Shown one piece after another: positions 13,370 through 50,559 of a stretch of 64,000 bases of DNA; position 1 is the first letter of the stretch; each line of letters starts with the position of its first letter. The translations under genes and the position numbers were made by a program. Origin of the DNA: Bryopsis sp. KO-2023 (lineage: Eukaryota; Chlorophyta; Ulvophyceae; Bryopsidales; Bryopsidaceae). The notes under the pieces were generated by a model, which saw only the letters and a program-made list of their open reading frames with translations, searched no databases and was not told the origin of the DNA. Location of the stretch: the NCBI GenBank assembly GCA_030272585.1, contig BSYQ01000009.1, forward strand, positions 2,232,001 to 2,296,000, given 5' to 3'.

Positions 13370-13510
13370 CCACCAGGTCTCACATAGAGCAGCGTAAAAT
13401 ACGACTGTTTATCAGTGTGAGTTGGCAATTCCATTCTTCCGAATTATCATCGGAATAATCATTACATCTGGTGGCAGTACATCTGCCATGTTCTTTCTAG
13501 CTCCGTCACA

Positions 13511-13985: not shown

Positions 13986-15311
13986 CTAGCTGCCACTTGG
14001 TCCCCTTTGTCGTTTGCTGGATGCTGCAGCTGCTGATGTTGCTCCTTTTCGGGCAGTCCTCTTTCGGGAGAGTGGAGGAGTGGTAGCTCCATGGATTTCG
14101 ATCAACCTCTCATCCAGGAGGGTCTCCACTGGATGGCTCTGCTGCTCATTGTCGACCCACGCTCCTGGGAACTGATCCGCTCGCACATGACTCCGAGCCC
14201 GATGTATGGCGCGGTTGATTTCCAGACGGGGTCGAGAGGTCGCCGGGTAGATGGAGCGGAAATGATTTGCTCCTCCGATCAATCGACATAGAGAACATGT
14301 CTGATCGGAGAAGTTTGCCGGCGGTGCGATTGACGATTCGGGAGCGTATATCCTGCGAAAGGTTCCCATGCCCCCTTCATTCATGTCCAGCTCCAAGCTC
14401 CCCGCCAACCAAGCACGGTCTCGACAACCAATCCGGTGACAGGCTTGGTGCCGAGAACATGCCCCGCCGATGGGTTTCACTGCATTCCGCGATCTGCAGA
14501 AAAAGCAGTTCCCCTCAACCCAGTCCCCGCCGGGATTGTCCTCCTCCTCTTTGATCTGTGCTTGATCGATCCCTGCATCCGTTCCTCCATCTCCATCATT
14601 GTGATCCGCCCTCTCTCTGATTCCGCTGCCACCTTGACTACCTCCCTCTCGTCCTCCCGTGGGATCAATCCTGTCCTGGTCCTCCACTCTTTCATCCCTT
14701 TCTTGTTCCTCTCTAGCAGCACCTCCACTGATTCCCACTCTGCCAGATTCTCCTCCTTCTCTGTCTCCACCATGATCGATGTCATCCCTTTCTCCTCTTT
14801 TCCTTCCATGCTCCTCTCCATCCCCGCCGCTGTTGTGATCGTCATCGCTGTCGTCGACTCTGAATCCTCTCGCGGTTCTCCGTTCCTCCATCTGCCGTTT
14901 TCCTGCATCCGTCTGCCTCAGCTGCCCCTCGAGATCCACGACTTCCTGTCGCAACCTCACCGTTTCCAAGTCCTCCGAGGCGATACTGGCTTGAGCCGCC
15001 TGAAGCGACTCCTCCAGTTCAACCACTCGTAAGAGCAGCTGATCCCGTTCATGCTGCAGGAGTATCACCTGAGCAGCAGAACTAGAAGAACCCGCATCGC
15101 CCTCACTTGCAGCCTGTCGAAGGGCGGAGTTTTCCTGGATGAGCTTTTGTCGCTCCTCTTGCCATTTCAGCTGGTTCCGAGTATATTCCTCCGCCAACGA
15201 CTCTTCTCCCCTAAATAAATCCTCCAGTGCTCTAGCTCCCTCTCTGGACTGCACCGCCCCTGCCTCGATCCTCTCGATCGCTTCCTCCACTCTTTGACGC
15301 CACTCAACCAT
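13986..15311 (-). CDS. O1 ORF3: coiled-coil protein with Cys/His zinc-binding-like domain, 441 aa
   Basis: The start ATG at 15,311 gives MVEWRQRV, similar to the M2 ORF3 start. Residues about 1-145 are heptad-rich and probably coiled coil. About 150-255 is Gly/Asp/Arg-rich and charged. About 269-296 has C-x2-C-x12-C-x2-H-x2-C-x4-C-RDR-x-WL, and CSLC follows near residue 345. The end is basic (SRKRTARK, SSKRQR), like a nuclear localisation signal. It sits downstream of integrase, where most Ty3/gypsy elements have no gene. The same Cys/His spacing occurs in ORF3 of P2 and M2 here. I recognise no named family; nucleic-acid binding is an inference. Confidence 0.75.
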   Translation of the reverse strand: MVEWRQRVEEAIERIEAGAVQSREGARALEDLFRGEESLAEEYTRNQLKWQEERQKLIQENSALRQAASEGDAGSSSSAAQVILLQHERDQLLLRVVELEESLQAAQASIASEDLETVRLRQEVVDLEGQLRQTDAGKRQMEERRTARGFRVDDSDDDHNSGGDGEEHGRKRGERDDIDHGGDREGGESGRVGISGGAAREEQERDERVEDQDRIDPTGGREGGSQGGSGIRERADHNDGDGGTDAGIDQAQIKEEEDNPGGDWVEGNCFFCRSRNAVKPIGGACSRHQACHRIGCRDRAWLAGSLELDMNEGGMGTFRRIYAPESSIAPPANFSDQTCSLCRLIGGANHFRSIYPATSRPRLEINRAIHRARSHVRADQFPGAWVDNEQQSHPVETLLDERLIEIHGATTPPLSRKRTARKGATSAAAASSKRQRGPSGS

Positions 15312-15532
15312 TCTCTTTTCTCTCTTTTTTTTTTTTTAAACAAAAAGCAAAACCTCCCGCTCCGTTGGTTTTCTTTTTCTCAGTCGAAGGAATTCGACGC
15401 CTCGAGGCTTGGGGTTTAAAAACACTCCTCTACGTCCTCTCAAGATGACTCCATATCTATGTGTTGGGTCTCCCAATATTCTCCCTCACTCAACCAGAGT
15501 TCTACATCCTCCAGAGCTCTCCTGCCGATATC

Positions 15533-15994
15533 TCAATCTCCCCTCTCTCCCTCACTCTCGCTATCAGTTACTTCGAACCCATCGCTCTCGCTCTCCTCTC
15601 CTCTCGCTCGCTTAATCTCCTGCTCGTGCATGTCACCCACGACTTCCAGCCGCCGTTTTTGGTTCGAATCCTGTCGTCGCCACCCAGAAGTCCTAGACCT
15701 CTCTCGAACCACCTCCTGCAGTCTCTCCTCCGGAATTTCCTCTTCCCCTTGGGTTTTCCGCAGTCGACTTTGAAAGTCTTCTATCCTCCCCAAACTCTCT
15801 AAGTTACTCAGTAGAGCGATTTTCTGGCGCCTGAGTAACTCTCTCGCCGTCCTCCCAGCGGTGGTTTCGTTTGTGAAGGCCCGTTTGAGCCGTCTAGTAA
15901 CCTCCACTCTTTGTTTTTCTAACTCCGTCCGAAGGCGGAGCACTTCAGCCGCCATGCACTCGTTCAGCTGCTGTTCGGACATTGTTCCTGCCAT
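15533..15994 (-). CDS. O1 ORF2: small charged coiled-coil protein, 153 aa
   Basis: The ORF starts MAGTMSEQQLNECM and lies between the integrase end (16,164) and ORF3. It is rich in Glu, Arg and Lys with probable coiled coil over its first half, a basic stretch (RRQDSNQKRR) and an acidic Ser/Glu tail. The second Met at codon 5 is an equally good start. It could be an extra accessory protein or a detached N-terminal partner of ORF3. It has no recognised domain. Both its start and stop are intact, although neighbouring O1 genes are split by insertions. Confidence 0.5.
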   Translation of the reverse strand: MAGTMSEQQLNECMAAEVLRLRTELEKQRVEVTRRLKRAFTNETTAGRTARELLRRQKIALLSNLESLGRIEDFQSRLRKTQGEEEIPEERLQEVVRERSRTSGWRRQDSNQKRRLEVVGDMHEQEIKRARGEESESDGFEVTDSESEGERGD

Positions 15995-16163
15995 TCTTTC
16001 CTTCGAAGTCTTCGTCGTTAACGAAATATCTTTTAGAACTTTATCCCTGACCTCCCGAAGACACTCCTTAAAACCCGTCTCACTCGCTACTGTTCTCTAT
16101 TCTTGGATATCTCGCTAGTAGTTTGGTCCAAGCTTCTCCGTAAAACTCTCCTAAAGTACTCTC

Positions 16164-16478
16164 CTAAGTACTAGGCTCTCCTCCGGGTACAGCGACATCC
16201 TCTAGAGCCACCCACCGGCTTTGTCGAGTACCCCTAGAGACCTTAACTCTAACTCCTGTTCTATCTATTTCCTCTATTCGAAATCCTGCCTGAGCTTTAA
16301 CCACTAGCTTCTTAGAAGTCTTAATTCTAACTAAAACCGAATCCCCTATTTTAAGAGCTTCTATTCTTTCTTTTTCTTTAAGTTTTTCACCATAGTTCCT
16401 CTGCTGCCTATACTGAGCTGTTCCTATTGATTCCTTAGCTCTTTCTTCCATCCTTTTTCTTAATTCACTCAGCTCTTT
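16164..16478 (-). pseudogene. O1 integrase, C-terminal fragment (cut by P1)
   Basis: About 104 codons continue the integrase at 24,262-25,373 in the same frame across the P1 insertion; the TCTTT duplication marks the join. The fragment has a basic helix and an SH3-like beta domain (IGDSVLVRI ... RWVALEDV), as in Ty3/gypsy integrase C-termini. It stops at TAG 16,164-16,166 with no chromodomain. Confidence 0.8.
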
Positions 16479-16992
16479 TGATACCAGTTGCTGACGTCCA
16501 GGGACGTCAGACGTCAAAGGCGTCATGCATCTGACGTCTGTGAAGCGTCAGATGCATCCCCGGTGAATGACAGCATCCTCCCAAGGAGGTACTACTGACC
16601 TACAGCGAGGAAACCACCGTAAGAGCACAGAGTCAAGACAGTGGTTCGATCATCCAGATTAGGACTTGCGAGACTGAAGTCTTGGGTTCGAGTCTGAGCG
16701 GAAACGTGCTTTGGTCTGGGCCTGTGTGTGAGAGTGTGAGTGAGTCAGGAGTAGAACTGGCGGCTGTGAGTCAGGGTAGTGGGAGTGTTACGGGTGGTTA
16801 GTCACCCTCGGGAAAGTCGAACTGGGAGTTAAAATGATGGGACGCTTGATGTAACCTTGCTTTTCAGTGATCTGTTGGTGTGACCCCGAGTCTGTGACCC
16901 GTGCGATTTTGTGTGACCGTTCCGCCGCCGCCTCACTCTTTTCCGAGATAGGAGACGTCGCTCGCGGACGTCAGTCCTCCCGAGCGATAACA
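16479..16992 (+). repeat. P1 5' LTR with clustered TGACGTC motifs and hairpin
   Basis: 514 bp. The first 80 bp hold several GACGTC/TGACG motifs, like CRE/bZIP binding sites, with two more near 16,961-16,975. A perfect 12-bp inverted repeat (ATGCATCTGACG ... CGTCAGATGCAT, 16,525-16,557) forms a hairpin with a 9-nt loop. This is likely the U3 enhancer/promoter region. Confidence 0.85.
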
Positions 16993-17461
16993 TTTTTGGT
17001 TTCGGAGCCCGAAGGAACCGACTGGACTGGAGCTCTCCGCTGGTTTGACCAGCAGGTTTGTTCGAGGCGCTTAACGCCAGTCGTAAGGTCGTGGGAAAAC
17101 GGAAAAAGGCAAACGCAGTGAACGGGAAAAAAGGAAAACGTGTGGTAGCAACGTTGGAAAAGAAGCACACCCATAAAAAGAGAGAAAAGAGGGTGCCAAC
17201 GTTCAGTCGTGTGACAGGACGTTTGGGAAAAAGGTTACCCTGTAACCTGCGTCGCTGTCAGCGAACTGTAGTACTCAGGTTCGAAGGGTTAGAGTCGGAC
17301 GTGAAGGGGTATAGTAGTATTACGTATAGTAACTCTCACGGCAAGGGCACGTGGGTTATCCGTTCACAGTTCGGCAAGGACAGGTCGTGGCGCGAAAGTC
17401 AACGGTCTACAGTTGACAGTAACCGTTGCCTGGAAAGTCAACTGAAAGTCAAGCGACCAGA

Positions 17462-19708
17462 ATGGCTCTGGTTCCGGTCGTTACAGAAAGCGACATGGTC
17501 GCGATAAGCGACGAAGTCATGGAAGGGTCAGAAGTGCAACCAATGGTGCACCAGCAAATTCAGAATATACAGATTAATGGTTCTGATCACACTGAAATGC
17601 AAAGACAGATTGAGGTCTGGGGTGGAACAGTAACCAACCACCTCCAGCAATCATTGACCTCCATGCAGAGTCAGGTTCAACAAGTCCAGGTTGAACTCTA
17701 TACACACAGAGAGCAAGCAGAGCTACATCAGTCAACTCTAAAGGAAGAGTTGCAGTCAGCCTTAGTGCACAGTTTGGAAGAACAGAGTCGAAAACTACAG
17801 CAGACTCAGGAGCTACATGCAAAGGACTTTTATCAAAGCCTCACTGCAAATACAAATACTCAACTGAAGGACCTTGGTGAACAGTTGAGAAGTACAGGAA
17901 AAGATCATGCTGTGGGCATGGCTCAGTGGAAAAATAAGAACCAAACAGAGCTGGAACTATTCCAGAAGAAGCAGTTAGCTCTACAGGAGCAACTGATGTT
18001 GGTTCAAAAGAAACAACAGGAAGATATTAATGCCCAATTATATGAAGTGTCTCAGCACATGCAAAGAATGCAAAAACAGCTGATGGAAGAGAGGGAGAGT
18101 ATGACAAACACAATGACTAGCATACTGCAAGGAGAATTGGACTCCTATCCTGCAGTCATTCAGAAAATGGTAGCTACAGCAGTGGATGAAACCACCACAG
18201 CTATTGAGGACAAGTATAACAATGCTGAAGGACAGAAAGCAGATCTAGAAGAGACTAGATGGGCTTTAACTGATCCAGAATATCAGAAAGCAGTTGATGG
18301 CTGGATGAAGGATGGAATCCTGAGAACACCTATTCCTCCACAAGTGATGCAAGTGCATATGATGCAAGCAACACAAACAGTACAGAATACAGAGGAAGGA
18401 GAAACTGAGGGACAAACTCAGGATATCCCAACATCTGGTCAGCCACCAGTACAGCAAGTTATACCTGCCACAAGTACTGGAGCAGTACCTCCAGGACCCT
18501 CTTCTTTAGGTCTAATAGACCTCACTTCAGGACAACAACTGTCCATGGGTTTACCACCCCCTATACTGCAACCACCAGCAGTAACTATAGCACCTCCAGC
18601 TACCTTTACTTTAGGTACTACCCCAGCACCATCAGGAATGGGAATTAGACCACCAAATCCCTTTGAACAGTTAACAAGTCAAAGAGCACCCAGTGGTGGT
18701 GCACCTGGAGGAAATCCAGGGGATCCAAATGGATCAAATGGACCAAATGGCCCAGACAGACCAGGCATGCCTAGAGCATCTGGTTCTGGACATCCAGGGC
18801 CAGGGAATGGTGGTGATGGTGGTGGAGGTGATGGAGGAGGTCCCCCAGGAGGAGGACCACCTGATAGAGATCCTAGTGGTACATCAGGAGGTTCAGGACA
18901 AGGTCCTGATAGACCTTACAGCAAACAGATTAAGCTCACTCCCCCAGAGAAATTCACAGGAGATGAAAGGATGTCTGCAACAGAATGGATATTAGGAATG
19001 AAGAGATGGTTGCAGAATCAACACATCTTAGAGAGGGACTGGTTATCCTGTTTTCAGTCACATCTCCAGGGAGATGCACTTAGCTGGTTAAACCTGATGG
19101 ATATACAGATCATGAATCAGGAAAAAGCAGAGTATGCTAGCTGGCAAGAGTTCACTCAAGAACTAAGGAATGTTTTTGAGCCAGTCTCCCTAATAGAGAC
19201 TGCCAGAAAACAATTAAGAACTCTAAGGCAGACTGGAACTGCCTTAGGCTACATCAGACTCTTCAGAAAGCTGATGTTTAGACTCCCCAATCTACCTCAA
19301 GAAGAAAGATATGCAGCCTTTGTGGATGGGCTCTCAGATAGAAATATGCAAGCACAGGTTATGACCCTGTGTGATGGAGATCTAGATAAGGCCATCCTCA
19401 CAGTCCAAAGACTCTCTGCAACTATAGGCAGTAGAGGTGGCACTACTAGCAGTTTTAGAGGCAGAGGTAGAGGGAGGGGAAGATTTGGACAGAGAAATAC
19501 ACAGATGTCAGCAATGATGTCTGCTGCAACATCACAACTGCCTCCTGCAGCAAATTCAGTTAAGGCTGTGCAGCAGAGAGGTCAGATGGGATCTAGGCCC
19601 TCAAGGGGAGGATCCTTCAAGTGTTTTCTATGTGGAAGCACAGAGCATGGGGTAAGACAGTGTCCCAAACTGTCCCAAGCTCAGAAAGCCCTGAAGAAGG
19701 GAAACTAA
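17462..19708 (+). CDS. gag: P1 Gag, 748 aa
   Basis: This encodes the capsid/nucleocapsid polyprotein that packages the retrotransposon RNA. The ATG at 17,462 is the first good start; the open frame upstream has no ATG. Residues about 30-290 form long Gln/Glu-rich coiled coils, followed by a Pro/Gly-rich linker. The retrotransposon Gag domain lies at about 500-640 (PEKFTGDERM ... WLQNQHI ... AFVDGLSD), then an RG-rich stretch and one CCHC zinc knuckle (CFLCGSTEHGVRQC) near the end. The last codons are AAG GGA AAC TAA, so a GGGAAAC heptamer touches the stop codon and can slip to the pol frame. Confidence 0.9.
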   Translation: MALVPVVTESDMVAISDEVMEGSEVQPMVHQQIQNIQINGSDHTEMQRQIEVWGGTVTNHLQQSLTSMQSQVQQVQVELYTHREQAELHQSTLKEELQSALVHSLEEQSRKLQQTQELHAKDFYQSLTANTNTQLKDLGEQLRSTGKDHAVGMAQWKNKNQTELELFQKKQLALQEQLMLVQKKQQEDINAQLYEVSQHMQRMQKQLMEERESMTNTMTSILQGELDSYPAVIQKMVATAVDETTTAIEDKYNNAEGQKADLEETRWALTDPEYQKAVDGWMKDGILRTPIPPQVMQVHMMQATQTVQNTEEGETEGQTQDIPTSGQPPVQQVIPATSTGAVPPGPSSLGLIDLTSGQQLSMGLPPPILQPPAVTIAPPATFTLGTTPAPSGMGIRPPNPFEQLTSQRAPSGGAPGGNPGDPNGSNGPNGPDRPGMPRASGSGHPGPGNGGDGGGGDGGGPPGGGPPDRDPSGTSGGSGQGPDRPYSKQIKLTPPEKFTGDERMSATEWILGMKRWLQNQHILERDWLSCFQSHLQGDALSWLNLMDIQIMNQEKAEYASWQEFTQELRNVFEPVSLIETARKQLRTLRQTGTALGYIRLFRKLMFRLPNLPQEERYAAFVDGLSDRNMQAQVMTLCDGDLDKAILTVQRLSATIGSRGGTTSSFRGRGRGRGRFGQRNTQMSAMMSAATSQLPPAANSVKAVQQRGQMGSRPSRGGSFKCFLCGSTEHGVRQCPKLSQAQKALKKGN
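19699..19705 (+). promoter_or_regulatory. P1 -1 frameshift slippery site GGGAAAC
   Basis: The heptamer reads G GGA AAC in the gag frame, immediately before the TAA stop (19,706-19,708). A -1 slip continues as GGG AAA CTA into the pol frame, which is open here. This fits the X XXY YYZ rule for programmed -1 frameshifting. No ATG lies close to the gag stop in the pol frame, so frameshifting is the simplest route to Gag-Pol. Confidence 0.75.
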
Positions 19709-22700
19709 AAGAGGAGGCTAGTGTTGGGTCAGCTAAGCCTCCAGATGATATTGAAATGAAAGAACCCACTACAAAAACACCAGCCTCACTAAATGATGGT
19801 GTTCAAGAGACACCTGTGGTTGCAGCCCCTATTGCAACAGAACAGGAAGCATACACACTGGATGGGGTCACTCCAGGAGTGTTAATTCAAAAGAAAAGGC
19901 AGTCTCAAAAGAGAGTGGATAAACAAACAGAGGCCACTGTGAGTTTACCCACTAGAGTGGAAAGAAATGTTGAGGGAAAGGAACCAGTTCAGACTGCAGT
20001 AGCTCAGGCTACAGCAGCATATAGAGGATATGAACTGGCAGGATTTATTGGTGCAAAGAAAGCTACAGCATACATTGATACAGGATCCACTGCTAACTAT
20101 ATTAGCATGGATGCAGTCAAGGAACTGGGACTGCAATACAAACCACAAGAAACTCCTGTTAAGTTTCTAGATGGTACAGAAAGGAAATCAGTAGGGAGAT
20201 GTTATGGCATCCCATTTGTCTGTGGAAAGATCCAGCTCTCATTTGATGCTGATGTCTTTCCAGACAGTAATCACCCAATCCTGCTGGGATTGCCCTGGCT
20301 TATACACTACAATCCCAAAGTGGATTTTAAGTCAGGAATAATCACAGTAAACAAGGGCAGAAAGAGTGTAAAATTACCACTCTCAGTGATGCCTGAATAT
20401 CAGCTCAAACCCACTGGAGCTACAGAACTTTCCTTTTGTTCTAGTGGCAGAATCAAAAGACAGATAGAAAAAGGGGAAATTAAACACATCATCATGGTGG
20501 TGATCAGGCCAGAGGATGAATCAAAGACTGGAGTAGAAACAATCCCAGAACAAAGAGAAGGGGATGATCTACAGAAAATCCTGCAGGAGGATATGGATCC
20601 CAGGATTAAGGAAGTACTGACTCAGTACAGAAAAGTGTTTGCAAAGGATTTGCCTAAAGGTGTACCTCCTGTCAGACTGGGTCATGAATTCAGGATTGAT
20701 TTGGAGGAGGGTACAGAACCCATGTATAGACCCCTATACAAACTGTCTCCTCTTGAGTTAGATGAGGTTAAAAGACAGTTAGATTACCTGTTGGAGATGG
20801 ATTTCATAGAACCATCACAGTCACCATTTGGGGCACCCATCCTGTTTGTCCCTAAGAAAGATGGAGGGCTCAGGATGTGCCTGGATTACAGATGGCTCAA
20901 TAAGAAAACCATCAAAAATAGGTATCCTCTGCCCTTACCAGAGGAGATGATTGACAGGGTACATGGGGCTAAATATTTCACAAAGATTGACTTGAGATCA
21001 GGCTACTGGCAGATGCCTCTAAGGGAAGAGGACAGGCCTAAGACTGCCTTCAGAAGTAGATTTGGACATTACCAGTTCAAGGTCCTTTCTTTTGGACTTA
21101 CTAATGCTCCAGCACAATATATGAACATGGTTAATGACATCTTCAAGGATATGCTGGATATCTTTGTGCTGATCTTCATTGATGATCTCTTAATCTATTC
21201 TAAGAGCATCTCTGAGCATGTAGAGCATTTAGCAGCAGTCTTAGCCAGGCTACAGAAGTATAGTCTGTTTGCCAAGGCCACCAAAAGTGAAATCTGTGTA
21301 AGGGAAACAGATTTCTGTGGATTTTGGTTGAGTGAAAAAGGGATCTCAGCAATGGATGTGAAAGTTAAGGCAATCAGGGATTGGAAGCCCTTAAAGACAG
21401 TTACAGATGTCAGGAGTTTTCTGGGGATGGTTTCCTTCTATAGAAGATTCATCCCAGACTTTGCAAAGATAGCAGGCCCTCTGCATGACTTAACTAAGAA
21501 GGATGTCATGTGGGAGTGGGGATCTGCTCAGGAACAGGCTTTTCAAACACTCAAAACTGCATTGATGGGGAAACCAGTGCTGATCCATCCTAATCCAGTG
21601 AAAGATTACACTGTGATTAGTGATGCATCTGGGGAAGCAACTGGAGGAGTCCTCTGTCAGGATCATGGCTCTGGATTACAGCCCATAGCCTTTTGCAGTA
21701 GAAGATTATCCAAATCAGAACAGAATTACTCAGTGTATGAAAAGGAAACTCCTGGGAATAGCCTACTGCTTGATGCAGTGGAGGCACTATTTAGAGGGCT
21801 GCCCAGGAGAAGTCACAGTCTTTACAGACCACCAGCCACTAACAAACTTTATGGATCAAAAAATGATGTCAAGGCCTCAGGCCAGGTGGCTGAGAGCAGG
21901 ACATTTCCTCAGCATCAAACCAAAGATTCAGTACATCCAGGGGAAATTGAATCTAGTGGCTGATGCACTATCAAGAAGTCTACCAGCAGAGAATCAAGTG
22001 AATGTAGTGAGCTCCTTACAACCTAGTATGGAGGAGATTACACTCTGGGAACAAGCAACACTAGCAGATGTTGAGATCAAGGACATCTACACTCAAATAC
22101 TGGATGGGGAGAGAATTCCAGGCTATGGAATTAATGAATCAGGATTGTTGATTTATCAAACTCAAGATGGACTCATGAAGTTATGGGTACCTCAGGAACT
22201 GAGGATGAAAGTCCTTACAGAAGGACATGATAATCAAATCTCTGGACATCTAGGGATAGAGAGAACTCTGGAGCTGATGTCCAGGAAATACTACTGGAAT
22301 GATATGAAAAAGGATGTCCAGGAATATGTCAGGACATGTGAGGTTTGCCAGCAAATGAAGCCTGAGTTGAGAGCTCAGAAAGGCTTGCTGCAACCTATTC
22401 CAGTAGCTGATAAGAAATGGGATCAGATCACTACTGATTTAGTGACTGATTTACCCCCTGTTGATGGATTTGATTCCATTGCAGTCTTTGTTGATAGATT
22501 GACCAAAATGGTGAAGTTCATACCCTGTAGTAAAACAATAGATGCACCAGGGTATGCAAGGATATTCTTTGATCACATCTTCAGGAATCATGGGATTCCT
22601 AGTGTGATAATCAGTGATAGAGACACTAGATTCACAAGTAAATTTTGGCAGGAATTAATGAAGTGTGTGGGCACTAAAGTTAGAATGTCTACAGCCTTCC

Positions 22701-23491
22701 ATCCTCAAAGTGATGGACAAAGTGAGGTCAGCATCAGGACCTTAGAAAACTTTCTAAGACCCTATGTGGAAGATCATCCAGAGACCTGGATGCAGGGATT
22801 AGGGATGGCTGAGTTTGCAGCTAATAATGCTGTGCATACTGCAACTGGATACAGCCCCTTCTACTTGATGTATGGAGTGCATCCACAACTGCCAGGGGAT
22901 TTACTTGCTGGAAAAGCTCAAGCTGAAGCAGAGTCAGTACAAGAGATGATATCTCATATGCAGGAAGTCATCAATGATGCCAAGGACAGATATAAAACAG
23001 CCCAAGAGAAGATGAGGCAGCAAGCAAATAAAAGGAGAAGGGATGTACAGTTTCAAGTGGGAGAAAAGGTGTTGCTCTCCACAAAGACATTGAATTTATC
23101 AGTCTTGAAACATATTCCAGTGAAAATCAGAAGAAGATATATAGGGCCTTTTGTTATTGCTGCTGCAGTGGGATCTGTGGCATATAGATTGGTGTTACCA
23201 GATGGATGGAAATTACATCCTGTATTTCATGTATCAAAGTTGAGAAAACTTCAAGAGAGTTCTAAGTTTCCTAGGGAGGTAATGGCACCTCCAGCAGAAT
23301 TAGATTCTGAGGGAGAAGAAGAATTTGAAGTTGAGGCTGTAGTAAGACATAAGTTTTCAGGAAGGAAAAGAAGATTTTTAGTAGTCTGGAAGGGGTATCC
23401 ACTTAGTGAAGCAACCTGGGAACCCCAAGACAATTTATTGAATGCATCAGAGATCCTGGCTGATTATAAGAGGAGAGCTGGGATCAGGTAG
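19706..23491 (+). pseudogene. pol: P1 Pol (protease, RT, RNase H, integrase, chromodomain), frameshifted
   Basis: Pol runs in the -1 frame relative to gag. The protease has DTGS (near 20,080), the reverse transcriptase FIDDLL (near 21,180), then RNase H, an integrase with an HHCC zinc domain (near 22,230-22,360) and DDE region ([23 protein letters not shown]), and a C-terminal chromodomain (VVRHKFSGRKRRFLVVWKGYP ... EATWEP). Near 21,750, inside RNase H, a single extra base moves the frame: the first frame stops at 21,963, and the correct frame resumes before 21,760 and runs to TAG 23,491. Two frames read across this point with matching homology to the P2 Pol, so this copy is broken by one indel. 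Confidence 0.9.
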
Positions 23492-36368: not shown

Positions 36369-36518
36369 GCGAGAGCGGAGCCAGAGCCAGAGAGTCAGAG
36401 CCGGACAGAGACAGTTTTTCCTTGGGGGTTTTCTTTTCTTTTCTTTTCTTTTATTTTTCTTTCTTTTTGGGTTCTTCTACGGGTGTGGACACCCTTTGGG
36501 GGGGGGGGGGGGAGTAGT

Positions 36519-36693
36519 TGATACGTTGTCGCACTCATTTTGCAGTACGAGTGTGTAGTACGGGTTAGTACGGGTTCTAGGGGGTTAAGTTCAGAGAGAA
36601 CACCTTGTAAAATTAATTCTCTGGTTTGTGAAAGTGTGTGACCCCAGTCTCAGACTCAGCAACGACTTCACTAAAACCTACAGGGGCCTAACA
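36519..36693 (+). repeat. P2 3' LTR
   Basis: 175 bp, identical by eye to the 5' LTR. It is preceded by a CTTTT-rich tract and the G-run polypurine tract. Confidence 0.95.
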
Positions 36694-36984
36694 GCCTAAG
36701 AGGGCCTGGACCAATCGGAACACCTGACCGAAACTGGTCTAACAGTCCTCGCAAAGTCATCAGTGTCTCCGTGTACTGAGCGAGTTTGGAGACATTCATC
36801 CGAGCTTCCCTGCCTGCTCTTGTGTTCATCCGGAACTCTCCCACAAGCAGACGGTGTCGCAGTTCCTCCTCATATTCCTCCATATCCACCAGTAGCTCCA
36901 GCAAAACAGCGATGATGTGCGCAAGGGCGGCGGCTTGGGTTGCATCCATTTCTTTCCTCTCCTCTTCAAACTTCTAATTCCCGT

Positions 36985-37749
36985 TTACTGAACTCTGCTC
37001 TGTTCTCTGAGAAACTTATCTCGATCTACTTCTTCCCTGCCTGCTTCTCCCTTAAGAATCCTAAGCAGGACTTGTTTCCTCCCAGAGGCCCTTTCCTCTA
37101 CAGGAGGTTTCTTGGATTTAACCTTTATCTTTTCTATCCCCCGTCCTGTGCCTCCTGTTCGACTCTGTCCCAGAAATTCCACCAAACCTTGCCATCCACT
37201 AGTCCTCCCCTAGACTAGTCTTTCTCCTATTCCTAGACCCTACTAATTCAACTTCCTCCCCAGAGGCAGATGATCTGACACTGTAGGCAGACCCTACTAA
37301 TTCAACTTCCTCCCCAGAGGCAGATGATCTGACACTGTAGGCAGACCCTGTGCCTCCTTTTTCTTTTCTCTATTCATAACTAGTCTAGACAATGCATCTG
37401 CATTGACATGAAACTTCCCAGGTCTATGGACCACCTTAATTTTATACCCCTGTAACTCTATGACCCACCTGGCCATCATATTGCTCAGGTGTCTAGAACC
37501 CATTAGCCAGAACAAGGCTCCACAGTCAGTAAAGACAGTAAACTCCCTCCCTGTCAGATAATAACTAAATTTCCGGATAGTCTTAATTACAGCCATGGCC
37601 TCCCCCTGGCTAGGGGCATACCTAGCTTCTGATTGACTATTCTTTTTGGAGAAATAAGCTATTACCTTCTCCTGTCCTTCCTGAACCTGGCCCAGTATTC
37701 CAGCTATAGCATACTGACTCCAATCGGTGCACACGAACACCTCCCCTTC
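36985..37749 (-). pseudogene. O1 RNase H fragment and linker (cut by M2)
   Basis: Beginning at the M2 LTR edge (37,749) the frame encodes VFVCTDWSQYAI, SKKNSQSEARY, FTVFTDCGAL and NADALSRL, a Ty3/gypsy RNase H. The frame stops at 37,297 just after a 54-bp direct duplication (37,234-37,341), and a basic linker frame continues to 36,985. The N-terminal part of RNase H and the whole reverse transcriptase are absent from both sides of M2. Confidence 0.8.
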
Positions 37750-38320
37750 TGAAACGGATTTGTTTCCTGAGGCTGAATACTTCCAGCCGCCACTTAACCC
37801 GTTCTTCACACACGTTGGGAGACGACCAGAACTTCTGTAAGAAAGGTCTGGGACACGAGAGTATACAACTGAATCTTATTTCAACAAGCTTGTTCTTTAC
37901 AACGATCCCCAGCCTTTTATACTCTCAGCCCAGAGCTTCTAGAAAACTCCCAGCCCATCTCCTAACCTTACAAATACTAGCTATCATCTAGCTCTCCTCA
38001 AAACGTCTCTATCATTTCTCAGCTCAGCCCTTCTAGCCAGAGCTCCGACTAACCCTTTATAACCCTTGATAACCTCTAGACTAAGGACCCAGACTGAAGC
38101 TCCTTCCAGTCTGACTCCCGACTCTCTACCCAAACTCTCAGCCATCTGAGACCTGACACTGAATATACTGAACCTGGTTCGAACTCTTTTCACTACGTTT
38201 CAGCCTCTCATTGAGCATCACGTAACTACCCCATTCCAGTCAGTCCGCGACTACCTGGAACTCTCAGACTGTAACCTCTGTTTTCCGCCTAGATCTTCGC
38301 CTACTAAGTCAGCCGTTTCA
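37750..38320 (-). repeat. M2 3' LTR
   Basis: 571 bp with 8-bp inverted ends TGAAACGG/CCGTTTCA. It lies against the O1 RNase H fragment on its left. Confidence 0.9.
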
Positions 38321-38334
38321 CTCCTCCCCCCTTA

Positions 38335-38830
38335 GAGAGAGATCGCTGACCCAGCGATGTTCTGTACACTAAGTTCGTATTGCACGACTCACCAGAACTG
38401 CCAAGTTAACTAACTCGCTTATTCTGAGAATACCTCTGATATAGCTGTAAGCAATATTCTCCGACGTTTTCCGTAACAACTTCCCGATTGCGACTTGAGC
38501 TGAATGTTGGTTTCTGCTTATGGTTACTTCTGCCGCTGTGACATCCCATCCCAGCCCGTTCACACATAAACCCAACCCTGTTCAATAGACTTCACAGCCC
38601 ACACTGGAAATCACACAGTCTCAGCTCTAGTCAAACTGTAATTCTCACAAGTGTTTTTACACACTCAGTATGTTAATTGTTTTCCAGAAATTCCCTCTAC
38701 CCTCACTTGATCCATTCACTGTTCTTTTCCTTTTTCTTCCAAAAACAAAATAAAATTCAAACACCCAATTACCAACAGAAAATCATATTTCACTCTTGAT
38801 CCTATATTTTTTTATTTTTTTTTTTTCAAC
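38335..38830 (-). other. M2 3' untranslated region
   Basis: AT-rich sequence with a poly-T tract near 38,808-38,826, between the ORF3 stop and the polypurine tract. No ORF of note. Confidence 0.5.
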
Positions 38831-39163
38831 TCAGGCTTTTCTGAGTTTCACATTTCTGGATCCCCCTGAACTTCCAGGAGGTTTCCTTTTCTTTCCTTCT
38901 GGTCCACTGTCTCCGCCTGGCTCATTGACGACCCAATCCCCATCGTAGTCCGTTGGTTCTGCATCGTCTTCGGCTGCCTCGAATTTTCTCAGGGGGCCCA
39001 CGGTCCGCTTGGCCTTTAAATACACTCCCCGAGTATAATCCGCCCCCAACTTGAAACCCAAGGCGCAGAGTTTGCAGGTTTCCGAGTGTAGCACCATTGG
39101 TGGCCCTGTTTCAGCTGGTACCCACATTCTCCGCCAGTCTCGTTTTTCCTCATCGACTTCCAG

Positions 39164-39399
39164 TGTTACAAAAACCTCCCAGAACCCTCCCTCGAAGCCT
39201 CCTTAACCCATCAAACCCCCACTCATTGATGGGACCCTTGACTAATGTCATTAGGGCGAGGCACCAGGGTTCTTGAGCTATAGGATCTCCTATTGGGATC
39301 CTATGGACCTTAAGCTCTGACTAGGCTATCACTAGTGCCCATAGCTAGTCTGTAGCTCTAGCTAGTGCTTACTAGACATCTCGGTGATCACTTGTAACA
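39164..39399 (-). repeat. M3 3' LTR
   Basis: 236 bp; it contains an 8-bp inverted repeat ATAGGATC/GATCCTAT and several CTAGC-rich motifs. The 147 bp between it and the polyprotein stop hold no ORF. Confidence 0.9.
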
Positions 39400-39545
39400 G
39401 TGCCCCCTCCTTAGATGTGAAGCCGCCTCGGGTTCACTAGGAATCAAATGCATGATAGGCATCATACAAATGATAGTGTCTAGTAGTTACACTATTTTAA
39501 GAGAGGAGATCATCATCATCCAGTGGCCAACTGTGATATGATGTC

Positions 39546-42500
39546 TCAAACCTTCGCTTGTGATCTCCTTCGGATCGTGCGAGGTGGTACAATCGATTGT
39601 GCTTGAGATTGGTGAAACTCGTCAACCAATTCTCGCGCGTGCACGACATTCTGTTCCGGTTCCCATGAGTTGTGCTCATGACCGTATCCAACCCATTTCA
39701 CTAGGAATTCTGTGTAGCATTTCTTGCCCCTACGTCGCTCTCTGCGATCAAGAATGCGCTCAACCTCCCATTCCAAGTCACCTTCAATCTCGATAGGTGG
39801 CGGGGGTTGCACAGTTCCTTTAGCCCAATATGGCTTCAAGAGTGAAGCATGGAACACCGGATGTATGGGCAAAGTATCGGGAAGCTTTATTTTGAAAGCA
39901 ACCTCATTTATTTGACGCTCGATAGGGAAAGGTCCTACCCATTTCGGCGTTAATTTCCGCGATCCTGGATGCTTTAACCTTAAGTTCCTTGCATCAAGGA
40001 GAACAAGGTCTCCAACCTTGATCTCTACAGGAGCCCGGTGACGATCAGCTTGAGCTTTATAGCGTTGCTGAGCCGCCTGAAGGCGTTTCTTTGCCTCAAC
40101 AATCCCTTCTCGGATTTCACTCGTCATTTTCTGAACTTCTGGTACAGCGACCTGCTTTGGTCCTTTTCTAGGGATCTGAGCAGTCAATGCTGTCCATGGA
40201 TCTTTTCCATAGTTCAGGAAGAAGGGTGTTTCTCCAGTTGCTTCTGATCTTGAGTTATTTATTGCAAACTCAACAACCGGTAATAAATCAGCCCAATTTC
40301 TTTGGGAAGGCCCCACAAAGTGGCGAAGAGTATCTTGCATCACTTTGTTCATCGCTTCGGTTTGCCCATCTGTTTCTGGATGATAAGCCGAAGAAAGGGC
40401 TTGACTGATTTCCCATTTATCACACAACTCCCTAAAGAAGTGTGAGACAAATCTTGGATCTCTATCTGTGACCAATTTCTTTGGCATGCCATGAGCTTTG
40501 AAAACATGGTTCACAAAGAGATTTGCTGCTTCAGCTGCACCACAATCCGTTCGAGTTGCAGCGAGATGTACCATTTTAGTTAACAAGTCCACAAAGACAA
40601 GGATTGCATCATAACCTGCTCCATTAGATGATGGGAGGTGAGTGACAAAATCCATCGAAACATTTTCCCATTGTGCATTCGGAATAGACAAGGGTTTTAG
40701 GGGACCTTGAGGCTTTCTTCGCCTACCCTTGTGCCTTTGGCATGAATCACATCCTTGCACATATGATCTGATATGGTCCTCCATCTGAGGCCACCAGAAA
40801 TGTCTCTTGATTTGCCGTAAAGTCTTAGCCACACCAAAGTGTCCACTATAGACTGTACTATGGCAATCATGGATTATATCCTGTCTCAATGTTCCAAAAT
40901 TTGGTACAGCCAGCACATTACCATTCCACCAGTAACCATCTTGATATTGTAACACCTGGGCAGCTTCCAGTGTGTCATACCAAGGGTCCTTAGTGTACCC
41001 TTCAGTCAACCTATCTATCAACTGGGTATAATAACCCTGAGGCGGAGATGGGTCCACAGAGTCCCGCCGGCTAGAAACCAAGCCACGTGATCTCCCGGTC
41101 TCGCATAATACTCCAATAGATGGTGAGCAAGACGGTATCCGCGACAAGGGATCAGCCACGTTTACCCGTCCCGGTCTATACTCCCATTCAAATTGGAATT
41201 CATGGAGTAATGCTAACCAGCGAACCTGCCGTCGATTCAAAGTCGATTGGGAATGGAAAAATGTGTTTGGACTATGGTCTGTGATTACTTTGAATTTGCT
41301 ATCAGCCAAGTAGCATCTCCATAGTTGAAGTGCATAAACTGTAGCATACATTTCTTGATCACTTGTAGACCAATTCAGTTGTGGGCCGGTAAGCTTTCTA
41401 CTCTCATATGCAATGGGATGTCCCTCTTGAAGGAGAACTGCCCCTATTGCATTGTTAGAAGCATCCGTAATTACTTCAAAGGGTTTGGTAAAATCCGGCA
41501 TAGCCAAGCAAAGTGCTTCTGTTAATGCCTTCTTCACCCCCTCAAAAGCGGCCTCACAAGCTGGAGTCCAATCCCATGTCTGTTGCTTTTTAAGCAAATC
41601 AGTGAGAGGTGATGCCAAAGAAGAATAACCCTGGACGAACTTACGAAAATAATTGGCAAGCCCGAGGAACGATCTCAAATCGTGTACCCCTTGTGGACGA
41701 GGCCATTCTCGTACTTTATTCGTTTTTCGAGGGTCTACAGAGATACCTTTGCGACCTACAATGAAGCCAAGGTAATGTAACTCTGTTTTGTTAAAGTCAC
41801 ATTTGGACTTCTTAAGGAACAAGTTATGTTCTCTTAATCTTTGCATCACGGCTCGTACATGGGCCACATGTTCCTCTGGTGTTTTTGAGTAAATCAAAAT
41901 GTCATCAAGGTAAATCAAGACATATTTGCCTATCATTCCTTGAAACACATGATTCATCAGTGTTTGAAACACTGCCGGAGCGTTCGTTAATCCCATTGGG
42001 AGAACCCGGTACTCAAATAATCCAAAAGGCGTTTTAAAGGCGGTTTTGGGGATGTCTTCCTCTTTGACTCTCATTTGCCAATAACCGGCTCTGAGGTCAA
42101 GAGATGTGAAGCATCTCGCGCCTTGTAACTGATCAAGAAGGTCATCAATCCGCGGGATCGGGAACTGATTCTTGATAGTTACTTTATTTAAACCCCTATA
42201 GTCAATGCACATCCGGAAACTTCCATCCTTTTTAGGAACAAAGAGGACCGGAGCGCCCCATGGACTAGCACTCGGCTGAATTAATTTTTTGGATAAGAGT
42301 TCGGACAACTGGTCCTCTATCTCTTTCCTTTCAGCAGGGGTGTATCTAAATAAGGGTCTATTGACCGGACGCGTTCCCTCGACCAAAGGGATATCCGCTG
42401 CCACTGCCCTTTCAGGAGGATATTCCGCCAAACCAGAAATAAACAAATCATCAAAGTCCTTCAACAGAGCTTCCATTTGCTCCTCTGGAACTTTGTCTGA

Positions 42501-44645
42501 TTCACTCGTTTCATCCGCCAATTTCAGATGGGATGATATCTCTTCCATCTCACGAACTACCAACAAAATAGGTTTTATTGAAGTATCTTTCAACTTCCTT
42601 TTCACCTGTGGTATCGAGAGTAGAGATGCAACCTGTTTTTGGGGAATATCTTTACCCGTAGCTTTGGGTAATAATCCCTGACGAAGCAATATTCGTTGAT
42701 GGGATGAAGTCGTTAAAGCGCACTTCTTTTCAAAGAAGTCTAAAACCGCTTTACGCTTCTGCAACCACGTATCACCAAGTATAATATCAAACCGATCTAG
42801 AAGATCCAACACCAAACAATCAAGCTTCTCTTGATAGCCTTGAATTTTCAGTGTGATCTTTGTCTCTCCCATTATATCAATATTATCCCCATTTGCCAAC
42901 TCAGCCTGTGATCCAACGGTAGCTCGATAAGCTATCCCATTTTGTTCACAAAACTGTTTGGACAGGAAGGCTAATCCTTTAGCTCCTGAGTCCAAAAGAC
43001 AATGGGCTGGGATTCCACTCAAGAGGCCCTCAAAATGCATTGCAAGCTTATCTTGCATGAGAAGCTCTGTTGCTTCCTCTGGCATTTTGGGTACGGGTGG
43101 ATCATAGAACACATTCACGGGCCAAGGAATGCCAGGAAGTCTTTTCCGACTTTTCCCCTTTTTGGCTGTGAATAAAACTGTTCCCTTCTTGTATTGTGCA
43201 ATCAATCTCATTGAGGTCAAGGCTGGATGCAACTCTTTAGACCTTACTGGAACAAGAATGCAACAAGAAGTATCATGGGGAGATCTCTTCTTTGCGAGAA
43301 GATAGTGATCGAGATATTTGTTGATATCCTTGAAAGGAGGATTCAACCACACATGCTGTCCACCTAAATCTCTTTCCAGAAATTCAGAAGGTGTGCAAAA
43401 TGTATTACATAAGGCACTGTTCACATCCGAACACCCATCCAACGTAAATACGCGGCCTGAAAGTGTCTCAAGACGTTGGAACTCCGCCCTTGTGATTCCT
43501 TGGTGAGAATCTTCTCTCTCATCCCTAAATTCCACAGAAGATTTCATTTCTTCACTTTTTTGACTTCTGGTCAAGATTGGTGCAAGAAAAGCATCACAAT
43601 CAATGTCCATTGGGTCAATTGTGGAATGTGGATTCAGATTCTTCTGATCTCTCAATTGTGTCCACTCAAGTGGGACTTCACAAGAACTGAGGTTCACCTT
43701 TTTCGACTGACCACACTTATGGCCTCTTGCCCATGGTTCCCCACAGAACCAGCATAAGCCAGCTTTCTTGCGAGCCTCCCTCTCACTCTCGGTCAACCGT
43801 ACCACCGGTCTTCGTGAGGGCTGAGTGCCACTTTGAGCTTTAAGCCTTGGTTGCTTAGGCTGATGCCTCTTCTTACTTCCTTTGGCTGGATCTGAGAAGG
43901 TAGTTTCCATACCTCTCTTTTTAGCCTTCCGGTCCGTAGTTTTCAACGGAAAACGAGCATCGTGACCCGGGGCTTTAGCCAGCACATACGTTCGCAAGGC
44001 TGAGTAGCTTCTCCATTCCCGACCAAGTGTATCAGTCTCCACTTGTTTGCACAAGTGTGGATGGAGGCCCCTCAGAAGGATCCAACACTTGGTAGTGTCG
44101 TCCATTGGCTCTTTTCGCATTGCTAAGTGAGCATCCACAAAGCGTACGAAGCCAGGAGTATCGACCTTCTGGTCAATATGATCCTTGCAGGAAGTAAGGG
44201 CATTATTTATGGAGTAATCTGTGGCAAGATCTCCAAATGTGCCATCTTCCAGGACTTGGCAGAATTTTTCCCAAGATAAAGACCCGTCCTCGAGTTCTTC
44301 CTTGGGTACCCTAGCCAATAAATGTCGGCGGGGTTTTGATCCGAGGAAAGTAGGTGCAATCACTCCCCACTCCTCTCTTGGGACTTTTGCTGCCCTGAAG
44401 TACATGGCTAACTCCAAACGGAATTCTGGCCACGGGACTTTGCCCTGGTACTTTTCAGGTTTATCAGCAGTCACTCTTCTGGTTTTGCCCAGGCTAGCAT
44501 CTTTCTCTTCTTTGGTCACTTCAGACCTGAGAGTGCTAGGGGACTGTGGTCCCTCTGTTCTTTCACTTGGAGAGTCCTCATTGACTTCCTCCAGAACAGA
44601 CCCTTCTTCTAAGGCAAGTACCTCTTGTTCTTCTTCTTGACTCAT
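39546..44645 (-). CDS. M3 Gag-methyltransferase-like-Pol polyprotein, 1,699 aa, single ORF
   Basis: The ATG at 44,645 is taken; the frame extends two codons upstream without another ATG. Domains in order: Gag-like (about 60-250); zinc knuckle CWFCGEPWARGHKC (about 298-311), the form common in chromoviruses; a Dam-like adenine methyltransferase domain (about 383-518); protease (DSGAKG, about 552); RT (about 765-945, YLDDIL); RNase H; integrase with HHCC (GHFGVAKTL ... CDSCQ) and VTDRDPRF ... HPETDGQTE; and a C-terminal chromodomain (ERILDRRERRRGKKCYTEFLVKW). Gag and Pol are fused with no frameshift or stop between them. No lesion is visible, so this copy may be active. Confidence 0.95.
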   Translation of the reverse strand: MSQEEEQEVLALEEGSVLEEVNEDSPSERTEGPQSPSTLRSEVTKEEKDASLGKTRRVTADKPEKYQGKVPWPEFRLELAMYFRAAKVPREEWGVIAPTFLGSKPRRHLLARVPKEELEDGSLSWEKFCQVLEDGTFGDLATDYSINNALTSCKDHIDQKVDTPGFVRFVDAHLAMRKEPMDDTTKCWILLRGLHPHLCKQVETDTLGREWRSYSALRTYVLAKAPGHDARFPLKTTDRKAKKRGMETTFSDPAKGSKKRHQPKQPRLKAQSGTQPSRRPVVRLTESEREARKKAGLCWFCGEPWARGHKCGQSKKVNLSSCEVPLEWTQLRDQKNLNPHSTIDPMDIDCDAFLAPILTRSQKSEEMKSSVEFRDEREDSHQGITRAEFQRLETLSGRVFTLDGCSDVNSALCNTFCTPSEFLERDLGGQHVWLNPPFKDINKYLDHYLLAKKRSPHDTSCCILVPVRSKELHPALTSMRLIAQYKKGTVLFTAKKGKSRKRLPGIPWPVNVFYDPPVPKMPEEATELLMQDKLAMHFEGLLSGIPAHCLLDSGAKGLAFLSKQFCEQNGIAYRATVGSQAELANGDNIDIMGETKITLKIQGYQEKLDCLVLDLLDRFDIILGDTWLQKRKAVLDFFEKKCALTTSSHQRILLRQGLLPKATGKDIPQKQVASLLSIPQVKRKLKDTSIKPILLVVREMEEISSHLKLADETSESDKVPEEQMEALLKDFDDLFISGLAEYPPERAVAADIPLVEGTRPVNRPLFRYTPAERKEIEDQLSELLSKKLIQPSASPWGAPVLFVPKKDGSFRMCIDYRGLNKVTIKNQFPIPRIDDLLDQLQGARCFTSLDLRAGYWQMRVKEEDIPKTAFKTPFGLFEYRVLPMGLTNAPAVFQTLMNHVFQGMIGKYVLIYLDDILIYSKTPEEHVAHVRAVMQRLREHNLFLKKSKCDFNKTELHYLGFIVGRKGISVDPRKTNKVREWPRPQGVHDLRSFLGLANYFRKFVQGYSSLASPLTDLLKKQQTWDWTPACEAAFEGVKKALTEALCLAMPDFTKPFEVITDASNNAIGAVLLQEGHPIAYESRKLTGPQLNWSTSDQEMYATVYALQLWRCYLADSKFKVITDHSPNTFFHSQSTLNRRQVRWLALLHEFQFEWEYRPGRVNVADPLSRIPSCSPSIGVLCETGRSRGLVSSRRDSVDPSPPQGYYTQLIDRLTEGYTKDPWYDTLEAAQVLQYQDGYWWNGNVLAVPNFGTLRQDIIHDCHSTVYSGHFGVAKTLRQIKRHFWWPQMEDHIRSYVQGCDSCQRHKGRRRKPQGPLKPLSIPNAQWENVSMDFVTHLPSSNGAGYDAILVFVDLLTKMVHLAATRTDCGAAEAANLFVNHVFKAHGMPKKLVTDRDPRFVSHFFRELCDKWEISQALSSAYHPETDGQTEAMNKVMQDTLRHFVGPSQRNWADLLPVVEFAINNSRSEATGETPFFLNYGKDPWTALTAQIPRKGPKQVAVPEVQKMTSEIREGIVEAKKRLQAAQQRYKAQADRHRAPVEIKVGDLVLLDARNLRLKHPGSRKLTPKWVGPFPIERQINEVAFKIKLPDTLPIHPVFHASLLKPYWAKGTVQPPPPIEIEGDLEWEVERILDRRERRRGKKCYTEFLVKWVGYGHEHNSWEPEQNVVHARELVDEFHQSQAQSIVPPRTIRRRSQAKV
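43092..43499 (-). other. Dam-like N6-adenine methyltransferase domain inside M3
   Basis: The segment reads FTLDGCSDVNSALC, then FLERDLGGQHVWLNPPF, then CCILVPVRS. This order and spacing match the phage-type Dam family (Phe-Thr-Leu-Asp ... Ala-Lys-Cys ... Gly-Gly ... Val-Trp-x-NPP[YF] ... LLP-x-R). NPPF is the catalytic motif IV of adenine-N6 methyltransferases and is intact. It sits between the zinc knuckle and the protease. The SAM-binding side is only partly conserved, so activity is uncertain. Confidence 0.75.
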
Positions 44646-44992
44646 GGTCACTTTTTATTTTGGTTTCCTTTGGACACAACCCCAACACAGCACAAAAACT
44701 GGAAATTTGCCCAAAACTCTGAAACCCAACTTTTATCGCTTCACTAGCCCTTCGAGGACCTCTTGGGTCTCCTCGAACTCACAGAACTAGCTTCCCAACG
44801 ATTCAGAAAACAAACCCTAACTTTGTCGGGCTGTAACTTTTCACTCACAACTCCGAACGACCCCAAACAAGTTTCAAACGAAGCGTCGTGTTCTCGGCTT
44901 ACTGTTAGACGCCTGTTTCGTCCAATTCCGAGTTGTTATAGTGTAGTTATGCGTCAAAACGTGACGCGCTCTCTTCCTGCTCCGAAACCAAC

Positions 44993-45228
44993 TGTTACAA
45001 AAACCTCCCAGAACCCTCCCTCGAAGCCTCCTTAACCCATCAAACCCCCACTCATTGATGGGACCCTTGACTAATGTCATTAGGGCGAGGCACCAGGGTT
45101 CTTGAGCTATAGGATCTCCTATTGGGATCCTATGGACCTTAAGCTCTGACTAGGCTATCACTAGTGCCCATAGCTAGTCTGTAGCTCTAGCTAGTGCTTA
45201 CTAGACATCTCGGTGATCACTTGTAACA
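44993..45228 (-). repeat. M3 5' LTR
   Basis: 236 bp, identical by eye to the 3' LTR; the primer-binding site lies to its left. The leader 44,646-44,978 holds no ORF I trust. Confidence 0.9.
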
Positions 45229-46014
45229 TCCAGACTGATACTCAGCCACACCCGATCCCGACACCCGATATTCGAGCACACCCAGTGCCGTTGGCAGTCT
45301 TCTCCGGTCGGCTGACAGTTGCTGCTCGGGGTGCGACAAAACACGCAAGTGTGTTTTTCCCCCTCTTCGTGCTTCACTTCTCCGCTTGGTTTTCCCGACA
45401 TGGACTCCACCATACTCTTCAACAAGTCTACCTGGCCCTTGAGCTGTTGGTTCCGCATTTGCTCTTCCCGCAGCTTGTCTTCGACCCCGTCGAGCTTGTG
45501 GCGCATTTCCTCATCTGCCCCCTCCATCAGCAGCTTTTCCGCCTCTCTTTTCGCCGCGTCCGCTGAAGTTTCCGCCATCGCCAATTTTACGCTGAGGTCC
45601 TCATTTTCCGCCAAATATTTCGCCCGGTCGTCGAGCAACCGAGTGCGTTCAGCCTCCCAGCTATCTCTTTCCGCCTGAAATCCCCCTTCTTCTTCCAGCT
45701 CGCCGATCTTTTGCTTGAGTTGTTCTTTTTCCTCCTCCAGCTTTGCCATTTTTTCCAGGGCCTCCTGCTCATCTCTTTCTTGGATTCTTTCCAGTCTGGT
45801 TCCTTCCTTCAGGTACTCCTCCAGCATTTTGTTGATCCTTTCCGACACTCCCTCGATCGCTCCAGCATTCTTTTTAATCTCCTCCAACAGTGCTTTGACT
45901 CCTCCACCAAACTCAACCATGTTGTCTGCTTTCTTTTTCTTTTTCGAACTCCAAACTGTCTCTCGCACACACTCGCACTCGCACACACTCAACCCGAACT
46001 CAGGAAAACAGGAG

Positions 46015-50552: not shown

Positions 50553-50559
50553 CTCAGCC

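Follow-up and report, generated by a model that had tools for sequence, protein, structure and literature searches.

What is a gene doing between integrase and the 3′ long terminal repeat (LTR) of a Ty3/gypsy retrotransposon, and is it the same gene in different elements? The question is raised by 64,000 nucleotides of the Bryopsis sp. KO-2023 genome (contig BSYQ01000009.1, positions 2,232,001 to 2,296,000; hereafter the window), a nest of Ty3/gypsy insertions in which elements O, P and M each carry a third open reading frame (ORF3) in this place. These genes, O1, P2 and M2, encode proteins with a C-terminal Cys/His domain. No third gene was found among the open frames of the two other elements of the window, N and M3.

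Three Ty3/gypsy elements carry a third gene

The three genes were proposed in a sequence-only reading of the window. Their placement and coordinates (Table 1) proved right, as did the splitting of M2 by M3, an insertion of about 6 kb. O1, whose strand had been left unstated, lies on the minus strand, where its open frame runs for 449 codons (15335..13986). We treated M2 as two separate pieces in all analyses and placed part b by eye against an uninterrupted copy, L051. The carriers had been called unrelated-looking, and the identities among their reverse transcriptases (RT), only 35-48% for O, P and M, bear this out.

The C-terminal Cys/His pattern can be read directly in all three genes, with x12 and a final CSLC in O1, x13 and CKLC in M2, and x12 and CQVC in P2. 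O1 and M2 also have in common an MVE start, a GCRDR-x-WL motif and a basic tail, as had been noted. The earlier statement that the rest of the proteins differs strongly goes too far for O1 and M2, which are about 31-32% identical over the C-terminal part. A charged low-complexity middle, ascribed to all three, is long in O1 and P2 and nearly absent in M2. The N-terminal coiled coil, likewise ascribed to all three, was assessed with a crude heptad test against 200 shuffles. It stands for M2 (1/200 shuffles scoring as high) and is weak for O1 and P2 (14/200 each). The test is also strong for R, a further family described below.

The third genes are maintained by purifying selection

We searched the genome (91.09 Mb, 28 contigs) for copies, counting matches by eye; all match counts are lower bounds. 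At least 27 of 94 O1 matches cover at least 420 of 449 residues, and 26 lack a stop codon. For P2, at least 39 of 78 matches cover at least 600 of 627 residues (36 without a stop), and for M2 part a at least 56 of 98, all free of stops, cover 235 or more of the 239 residues.

Ratios of nonsynonymous to synonymous substitution (dN/dS), calculated pairwise between genomic copies by the Nei-Gojobori method, are low over the whole gene: 0.12-0.28 for O1 (five pairs), 0.20-0.38 for M2 (three pairs), 0.12-0.16 for P2 (two pairs) and 0.14 for its sister family P2b (one pair). Substitutions between P2 and P2b are saturated. These values rule out a pseudogene, and ORF3 is almost certainly a real gene kept under purifying selection. 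Over the domain alone, dN/dS is 0.05-0.23 in O1, P2 and P2b pairs, and 0.08, 0.39 and 0.54 in M2 pairs, the last involving L054, a copy frameshifted at its end.

Selection on the ligand pattern itself, as had been proposed, is supported by a comparison of Cys/His codons with other codons. Across 26 O1 copies, none of the eight ligand codons has changed, whereas 35 of 113 others vary; in 25 P2 copies the figures are 0/8 for ligand codons and 13/113 for other domain codons.

Similar Cys/His domains occur in further families of the genome

The three carrier families described at first are joined in this genome by at least five further kinds with a similar domain: P2b, R, F1, F2 and F3. Searched with O1, the genome yields the M2 domain, with E values from 2e-15 upwards and identities mostly of 35-37%, and the two domains score 66 bits in pairwise comparison. 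A chance pattern is thereby ruled out for O1/M2. A search with P2 revealed P2b, for which at least 18 matches, one containing a stop, cover 153 or more of the 154 domain residues. Searches with P2b and R recover one another at about E 1e-10, and the R search recovers P2 at about E 2e-9. At least 61 R matches, all of them free of stops, cover the full 147-residue query (150 of 340 candidates scored).

We also examined the stretch behind seven further integrase matches (L060-L066). F1 (L061) and F2 (L065) have a domain with the same ligand order fused to pol behind integrase, in the frame order integrase, hydrophobic stretch, low-complexity part, Cys/His domain. A looser pattern found no domain behind integrase in L060, L062, L063, L064 and L066, over about 4.4 kb in each case; of these, L060 and L064 belong to the same family (88% integrase identity). 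A search with F2 gave 45 matches, including two of its own copies, F3 at 43% and 40 F1 or F1-like sequences at 35-38%.

Profile comparisons were controlled with 150 column-shuffled profiles, with and without the Cys/His columns fixed. P2/R against O1/M2 gave E 1.6e-4 and a probability of 50%, with 0/150 shuffles scoring as high and 1/150 when Cys/His columns were kept; an earlier comparison of P2 with O1/M2 had given E 6e-4 and 29%. R against F2/F3 gave E 1.1e-3 and 21% (0/150; 1/150 with Cys/His kept), and P2/R against all F gave E 0.014 (3/150; 6/150). There was no similarity between the O1/M2 and F profiles (E 0.46; 97/150; 122/150). Two results count against a single family: as single sequences, P2 scores at most 6.5 bits against O1/M2, as does P2b against M2, and R alone shows no link to the M profile (E 0.13) or the O profile (E 0.28). 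On these comparisons, we consider the homology of O1 with M2 firm, and likewise that of P2, P2b and R. At the level of sequence, P2/R is likely related to O1/M2, and a relationship of F to the other groups is possible.

Outside this genome, the C-terminal domains of O1, P2 and M2 had no relative at E ≤ 0.1 in a protein collection (946, 272 and 45 candidates) in which this genome's own ORF3 proteins are not listed either, and the result therefore says little about other algae. Among viral contigs, the O1/M2 and P2 alignments gave 37 and 40 pattern matches, none of which was confirmed, and phage records contained no P2 relative.

ORF3 and pol differ in their relationships

The relationships of ORF3 disagree with those of pol, as judged by pairwise ORF3 scores on one side and unrooted pol trees and identities on the other. 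RT identities are 61% for P-N, 51% for M-M3, 48% for P-M, 38% for O-M and 35% for O-P; integrase identities are 55% for P-N, 37% for P-M and 25% for O-M. N is the nearest pol relative of P within the window. In the trees, P pairs with N (support 0.99), and M falls beside M3, P and N, away from O. ORF3 goes the opposite way: M2 matches O1 well and barely matches P2 or P2b in the pairwise scores given above. Because the pol of M is nearer to P and its ORF3 nearer to O, the simplest reading suggested by the sequences is a transfer of ORF3 between elements of the O and M kinds. Alternatively, old paralogues may have been lost differentially.

Copies of M bear on the same question. Compared with L052, L053 and L054, L051 jumps in identity from about 64-66% to 92-96% near its nucleotide 330, inside ORF3. 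The jump is a sign of recombination between subfamilies, and ORF3 ends therefore get reshuffled between them. L054 additionally shows a drop in identity near nucleotide 930.

The domain resembles RING fingers in ligand order and departs from them in spacing

The ligand order C-C-C-H-C-(C/H)-C-C is found in O1, O1b, M2, M2b, P2, P2b, R, F1 and F2. In F1 the ligand His is either of two candidates, and F3 has Phe at the seventh position. M2 has the spacing of O1, apart from x13 and a last loop of 38, and R has that of P2, apart from x14 and a last loop of 53. The F families have x13-15 and a longer step between ligands 5 and 6 (x10-11). A Trp stands shortly behind ligand 5 or 6 in 12/12 sequences of the profile comparison; in a second alignment these residues were not in register.

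RING-HC fingers have His as their fourth ligand, and the eight ligands of ORF3 follow the RING order. A PHD finger would need His in the fifth place and is excluded. A CCHC knuckle (C-x2-C-x4-H-x4-C) is absent from O1, M2 and P2 by reading, the spacing being wrong. RING (C3HC4) fingers also occur behind coiled coils, as in Bre1, where the finger is C-terminal behind helices with His fourth; ORF3 is like these in ligand order and in place, and differs in its spacing, in having no Pfam match over the cut-off and in having no predicted fold.

Several results weigh against a RING assignment. RING fingers have C5-x2-C6 and a C6-to-C7 loop of 4-48 residues, whereas O1 and M2 have C5-x4-C6 and the F families x10-11; P2 and R fit with C5-x2-H6, but their last loop of 53-57 exceeds the RING maximum. 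The R domain alone matches zf-RING_5 at E 0.041 (14.3 bits, below the cut-off of 27.9), and full-length R at E 1.1; in Pfam this match is absent for O1, O1b, M2, P2, P2b, F1, F2 and F3, and no family exceeded its cut-off for any ORF3 searched. AlphaFold2 models of the O1 and P2 domains reached a mean pLDDT of 38, from four alignment rows each (O1, the two M2 pieces and P2). There was no credible relative of ORF3 in the PDB. Among four M2 copies, L054 included, one ligand codon has changed. We give a RING-like zinc fold an even chance and regard the domain as a candidate member of the RING family.

The helical part of R has Dynamitin and Crescentin matches in Pfam, both below their cut-offs, and gives only weak matches in PHROGs.

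A nuclear, oligomeric accessory protein as a tentative model

In the model we favour, the ORF3 domain would be a single mobile module that element lineages have passed to one another, and it would bind a pair of zinc ions in a cross-brace like that of RING fingers. Nuclear import would depend on the basic clusters next to the domain or after it, and the protein would form oligomers in the nucleus through its N-terminal helices. Acting in trans, the zinc head would grip host proteins, most probably in the manner of a ubiquitin ligase or an adaptor, and so weaken silencing or restriction directed at the element.

Basic clusters were noted by eye in R (PKKRK), M2 (GKKRKP), P2 (KRGKKRTR), O1 (SRKRTARKG) and F2 (PKKKRR), and look like nuclear signals. 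The N-terminal helices suggest oligomers, an expectation to which the weak heptad scores of O1 and P2 run counter. Nothing in particular points to the nucleic-acid-binding role that had been proposed: a CCHC knuckle, read from the sequence, is already present in the gag of O, P, M and N alike, and the ORF3 ligand order is RING-like. For these reasons we lean towards a head that grips proteins. The F families, with the domain inside pol, would fit a role in the particle or in integration equally well, which tells against the model.

The mechanism as a whole, a nuclear and oligomeric protein with a RING-like head acting on host proteins, is a tentative proposal to which we give somewhat less than an even chance. 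Taken by itself, the idea that ORF3 targets nuclear proteins of the host, and not the RNA of its element, is possible and short of probable. We think it rather unlikely, and worth stating, that ORF3 represents a new class of LTR-retrotransposon gene, encoding nuclear RING-like accessory proteins (possibly ubiquitin ligases, E3), a module spread across distant Ty3/gypsy lineages as a gene or as a pol fusion and serving perhaps as counter-defence against silencing in the algal host.

Alternative readings and precedents

To our knowledge, LTR retrotransposons have few accessory genes, most of which are env-like or encode captured enzymes. The sequence-only reading took the slot behind integrase to be usually without a gene in Ty3/gypsy elements, env-like genes apart. 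Third genes nevertheless have precedents in the bdelloid ORF3s (PMC5408684) and in CERV of the Caenorhabditis elegans Ty3/gypsy element Cer1 (PMC10309623).

CERV is reported to be a nuclear protein required for export of Cer1 RNA (PMC10309623), and by analogy it appears to be the nearest functional precedent. ORF3 might similarly be an oligomeric nuclear protein of the Rev/CERV kind that binds the element's unspliced RNA through its Cys/His domain, for export or packaging. Like ORF3, CERV is an accessory protein beyond gag-pol with a zipper-like part, a basic candidate nuclear localisation signal and a Cys-rich motif; a leucine-zipper motif, the candidate signal KRKK and a Cys-rich loop needed for genomic RNA export are described (PMC10309623). 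These three kinds of feature are also suggested in ORF3. Compared by description, CERV differs in that its N-terminal half is common with gag, in its predicted G-protein-like and ring-forming domains and in a possible C4-type loop (PMC10309623). The ORF3 ligand pattern is unlike this single Cys-rich loop, Pfam gives no RNA-binding domain, and gag already has CCHC knuckles. We regard an RNA-binding role of this kind as a doubtful candidate that nonetheless deserves consideration.

Convergence is unlikely. P2/R, O1/M2 and F1/F2 would then be zinc proteins of two or three separate origins that came to occupy one slot, as the absent similarity between O1/M2 and F, the low single-sequence scores of P2 against O1/M2 and the failure of R against the M and O profiles might suggest. 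It is opposed by the shuffle controls, even with Cys/His columns kept, for P2/R with O1/M2 and for R with F2/F3, and by the common slot behind integrase and the common ligand order.

An integration tether, in which the domain would bind chromatin or a chromatin protein and guide the pre-integration complex as chromodomains do, is quite improbable. In F1 and F2 the domain stands in frame behind integrase, the chromodomain's place, and these families resemble elements described with a chromodomain at the gag-pol end (PMC3350952) in carrying an extra domain at the end of pol. In F1/F2 that domain shows the Cys/His pattern and is not a chromodomain. Against a tether, the pol of P and of M already ends in a chromodomain, and these two elements encode ORF3 in a frame of its own.

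It is very improbable that ORF3 encodes an env-like or membrane protein serving movement from cell to cell: ORF3 sits in the env position, and F1 and F2, in their long frames behind integrase (L061:1-3114, L065:1-2757), have a hydrophobic stretch between integrase and domain (Kyte-Doolittle mean 2.0), but O1, M2, P2 and R have none, the best 19-residue mean being 0.58-0.84 in O1, M2 and P2 and up to 0.93 with R, which rejects an env identity with signal peptide and membrane anchor for these four. The earlier statement that ORF3 has no membrane segment thus holds for O1, M2 and P2 and is not general.

The bdelloid ORF3s, of the kinds GDSL, DEDDy, CC and TM, resemble the genes described here in being third genes behind pol that are common to distant retroelement lineages, a distribution interpreted as exchange (PMC5408684). 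Those with an assigned domain are enzymes or env, unlike the Cys/His ORF3, and the main text of that paper does not use the words zinc or ring (PMC5408684). Judged by titles and the beginnings of abstracts, none of the open-access papers listed for additional genes of this kind describes the ORF3 Cys/His domain; nothing was listed there on retrotransposons of Bryopsidales, and for the Bryopsis nuclear genome one paper, on a sea slug. A Cys/His-domain gene is present at about 240 matched places in this one genome, spread over at least seven families, with signs of swapping between lineages. The module offers a test case for how retrotransposons gain and share regulators, and perhaps resist silencing in algae.

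Architecture of the window

Table 1. Third genes, their domains and the surrounding elements, in window coordinates
Feature	Coordinates	Strand	Description
O1, third gene of O	13986..15311	minus	441 aa from MVE start at 15311; helical N part, Gly/Asp/Arg-rich middle, C-terminal Cys/His domain, basic tail
O1 domain, putative ligands 1-8	14286..14507	minus	C-x2-C-x12-C-x2-H-x2-C-x4-C-x42-C-x2-C
P2, third gene of P	34485..36368	plus	627 aa; helical N part, Lys/Ala/Glu repeats, C-terminal Cys/His domain
P2 domain, putative ligands 1-8	35991..36251	plus	C-x2-C-x12-C-x2-H-x2-C-x2-H-x57-C-x2-C
M2 part a	45229..45920	minus	N-terminal helical region and ligands 1-6; cut by M3
M2 part b	38831..39163	minus	final CxxC pair (CKLC) with basic tail, on the far side of M3
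Element O	11690..55316	minus	split by N, P and M (with M3)
O repeat pieces (LTR)	11690-12904/54102-55316		99.9% identity, by self-comparison
O gag-protease	52030-53925	minus	
O RNase H piece	37297-37875	minus	
O integrase	24240-25424 and 16164-16547	minus	
O 187-codon frame	15533-16096	minus	extra frame between integrase and O1
Element N	16478..24267	plus	LTRs 16478-16997/23747-24267; last pol frame ends 23491
Element P	26421..36693	plus	LTRs 26421-26595/36519-36693, identical; target-site duplication GCCTA
P gag; P pol	27082-30078; 30036-34163	plus	pol with chromodomain; followed by P2
Element M	37750..52048	minus	LTRs 37750-38322/51476-52048, 99.8%
M gag; M pol	49557-50573; 46015-49653	minus	pol with chromodomain; followed by M2
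M3, nested in M	39164..45228	minus	LTRs 39164-39399/44993-45228, identical; target-site duplication TCCAG
M3 gag-pol	39546-44654	minus	single frame with chromodomain

Self-comparison of the window yields five LTR pairs of 99.6-100% identity, and O, P and M are recently inserted elements. N, P and M (with M3) are all nested in O. P and M3 each have an exact 5 bp duplication at their ends; O, M and N, with boundaries as set here, give no target duplication. A further O repeat piece (13370-13511/55309-55450) lies at another spacing, so the O LTR is longer than listed, with an insertion or deletion between its copies.

The 187-codon frame of O has an acidic tail, recurs in a further copy of O (L058) and has no Pfam match. 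A 177-codon frame between the RNase H and integrase frames (L058:3723-4253, plus strand) is likewise without a Pfam match; its end is also found at window 26162-26551 (minus strand).

Ahead of the protease, at residues of about 393-452, M3 gag-pol resembles a DNA adenine methyltransferase (Pfam Dam, E 3e-5, 24.2 bits, below the cut-off of 28.1; NPPF by eye). Methylase-carrying Ty3/gypsy and DIRS elements, green algae included, are reported (PMC6338049).

Next to the nest, on the minus strand, lie a frame with F5/8-type (galactose-binding, lectin-like) domains (8802-10013), a similar frame by eye (8193-8729) and a trypsin-like frame by eye (10463-11479). The F5/8-type and trypsin-like frames of this stretch (8193-11479) are likely host genes. 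Together with the F5/8-type frame and the genome size, two further observations point to a coenocytic green alga such as Bryopsis: 107 matches to exons of light-harvesting proteins in the genome, and cox1 pieces scattered across 12 kb of one contig.

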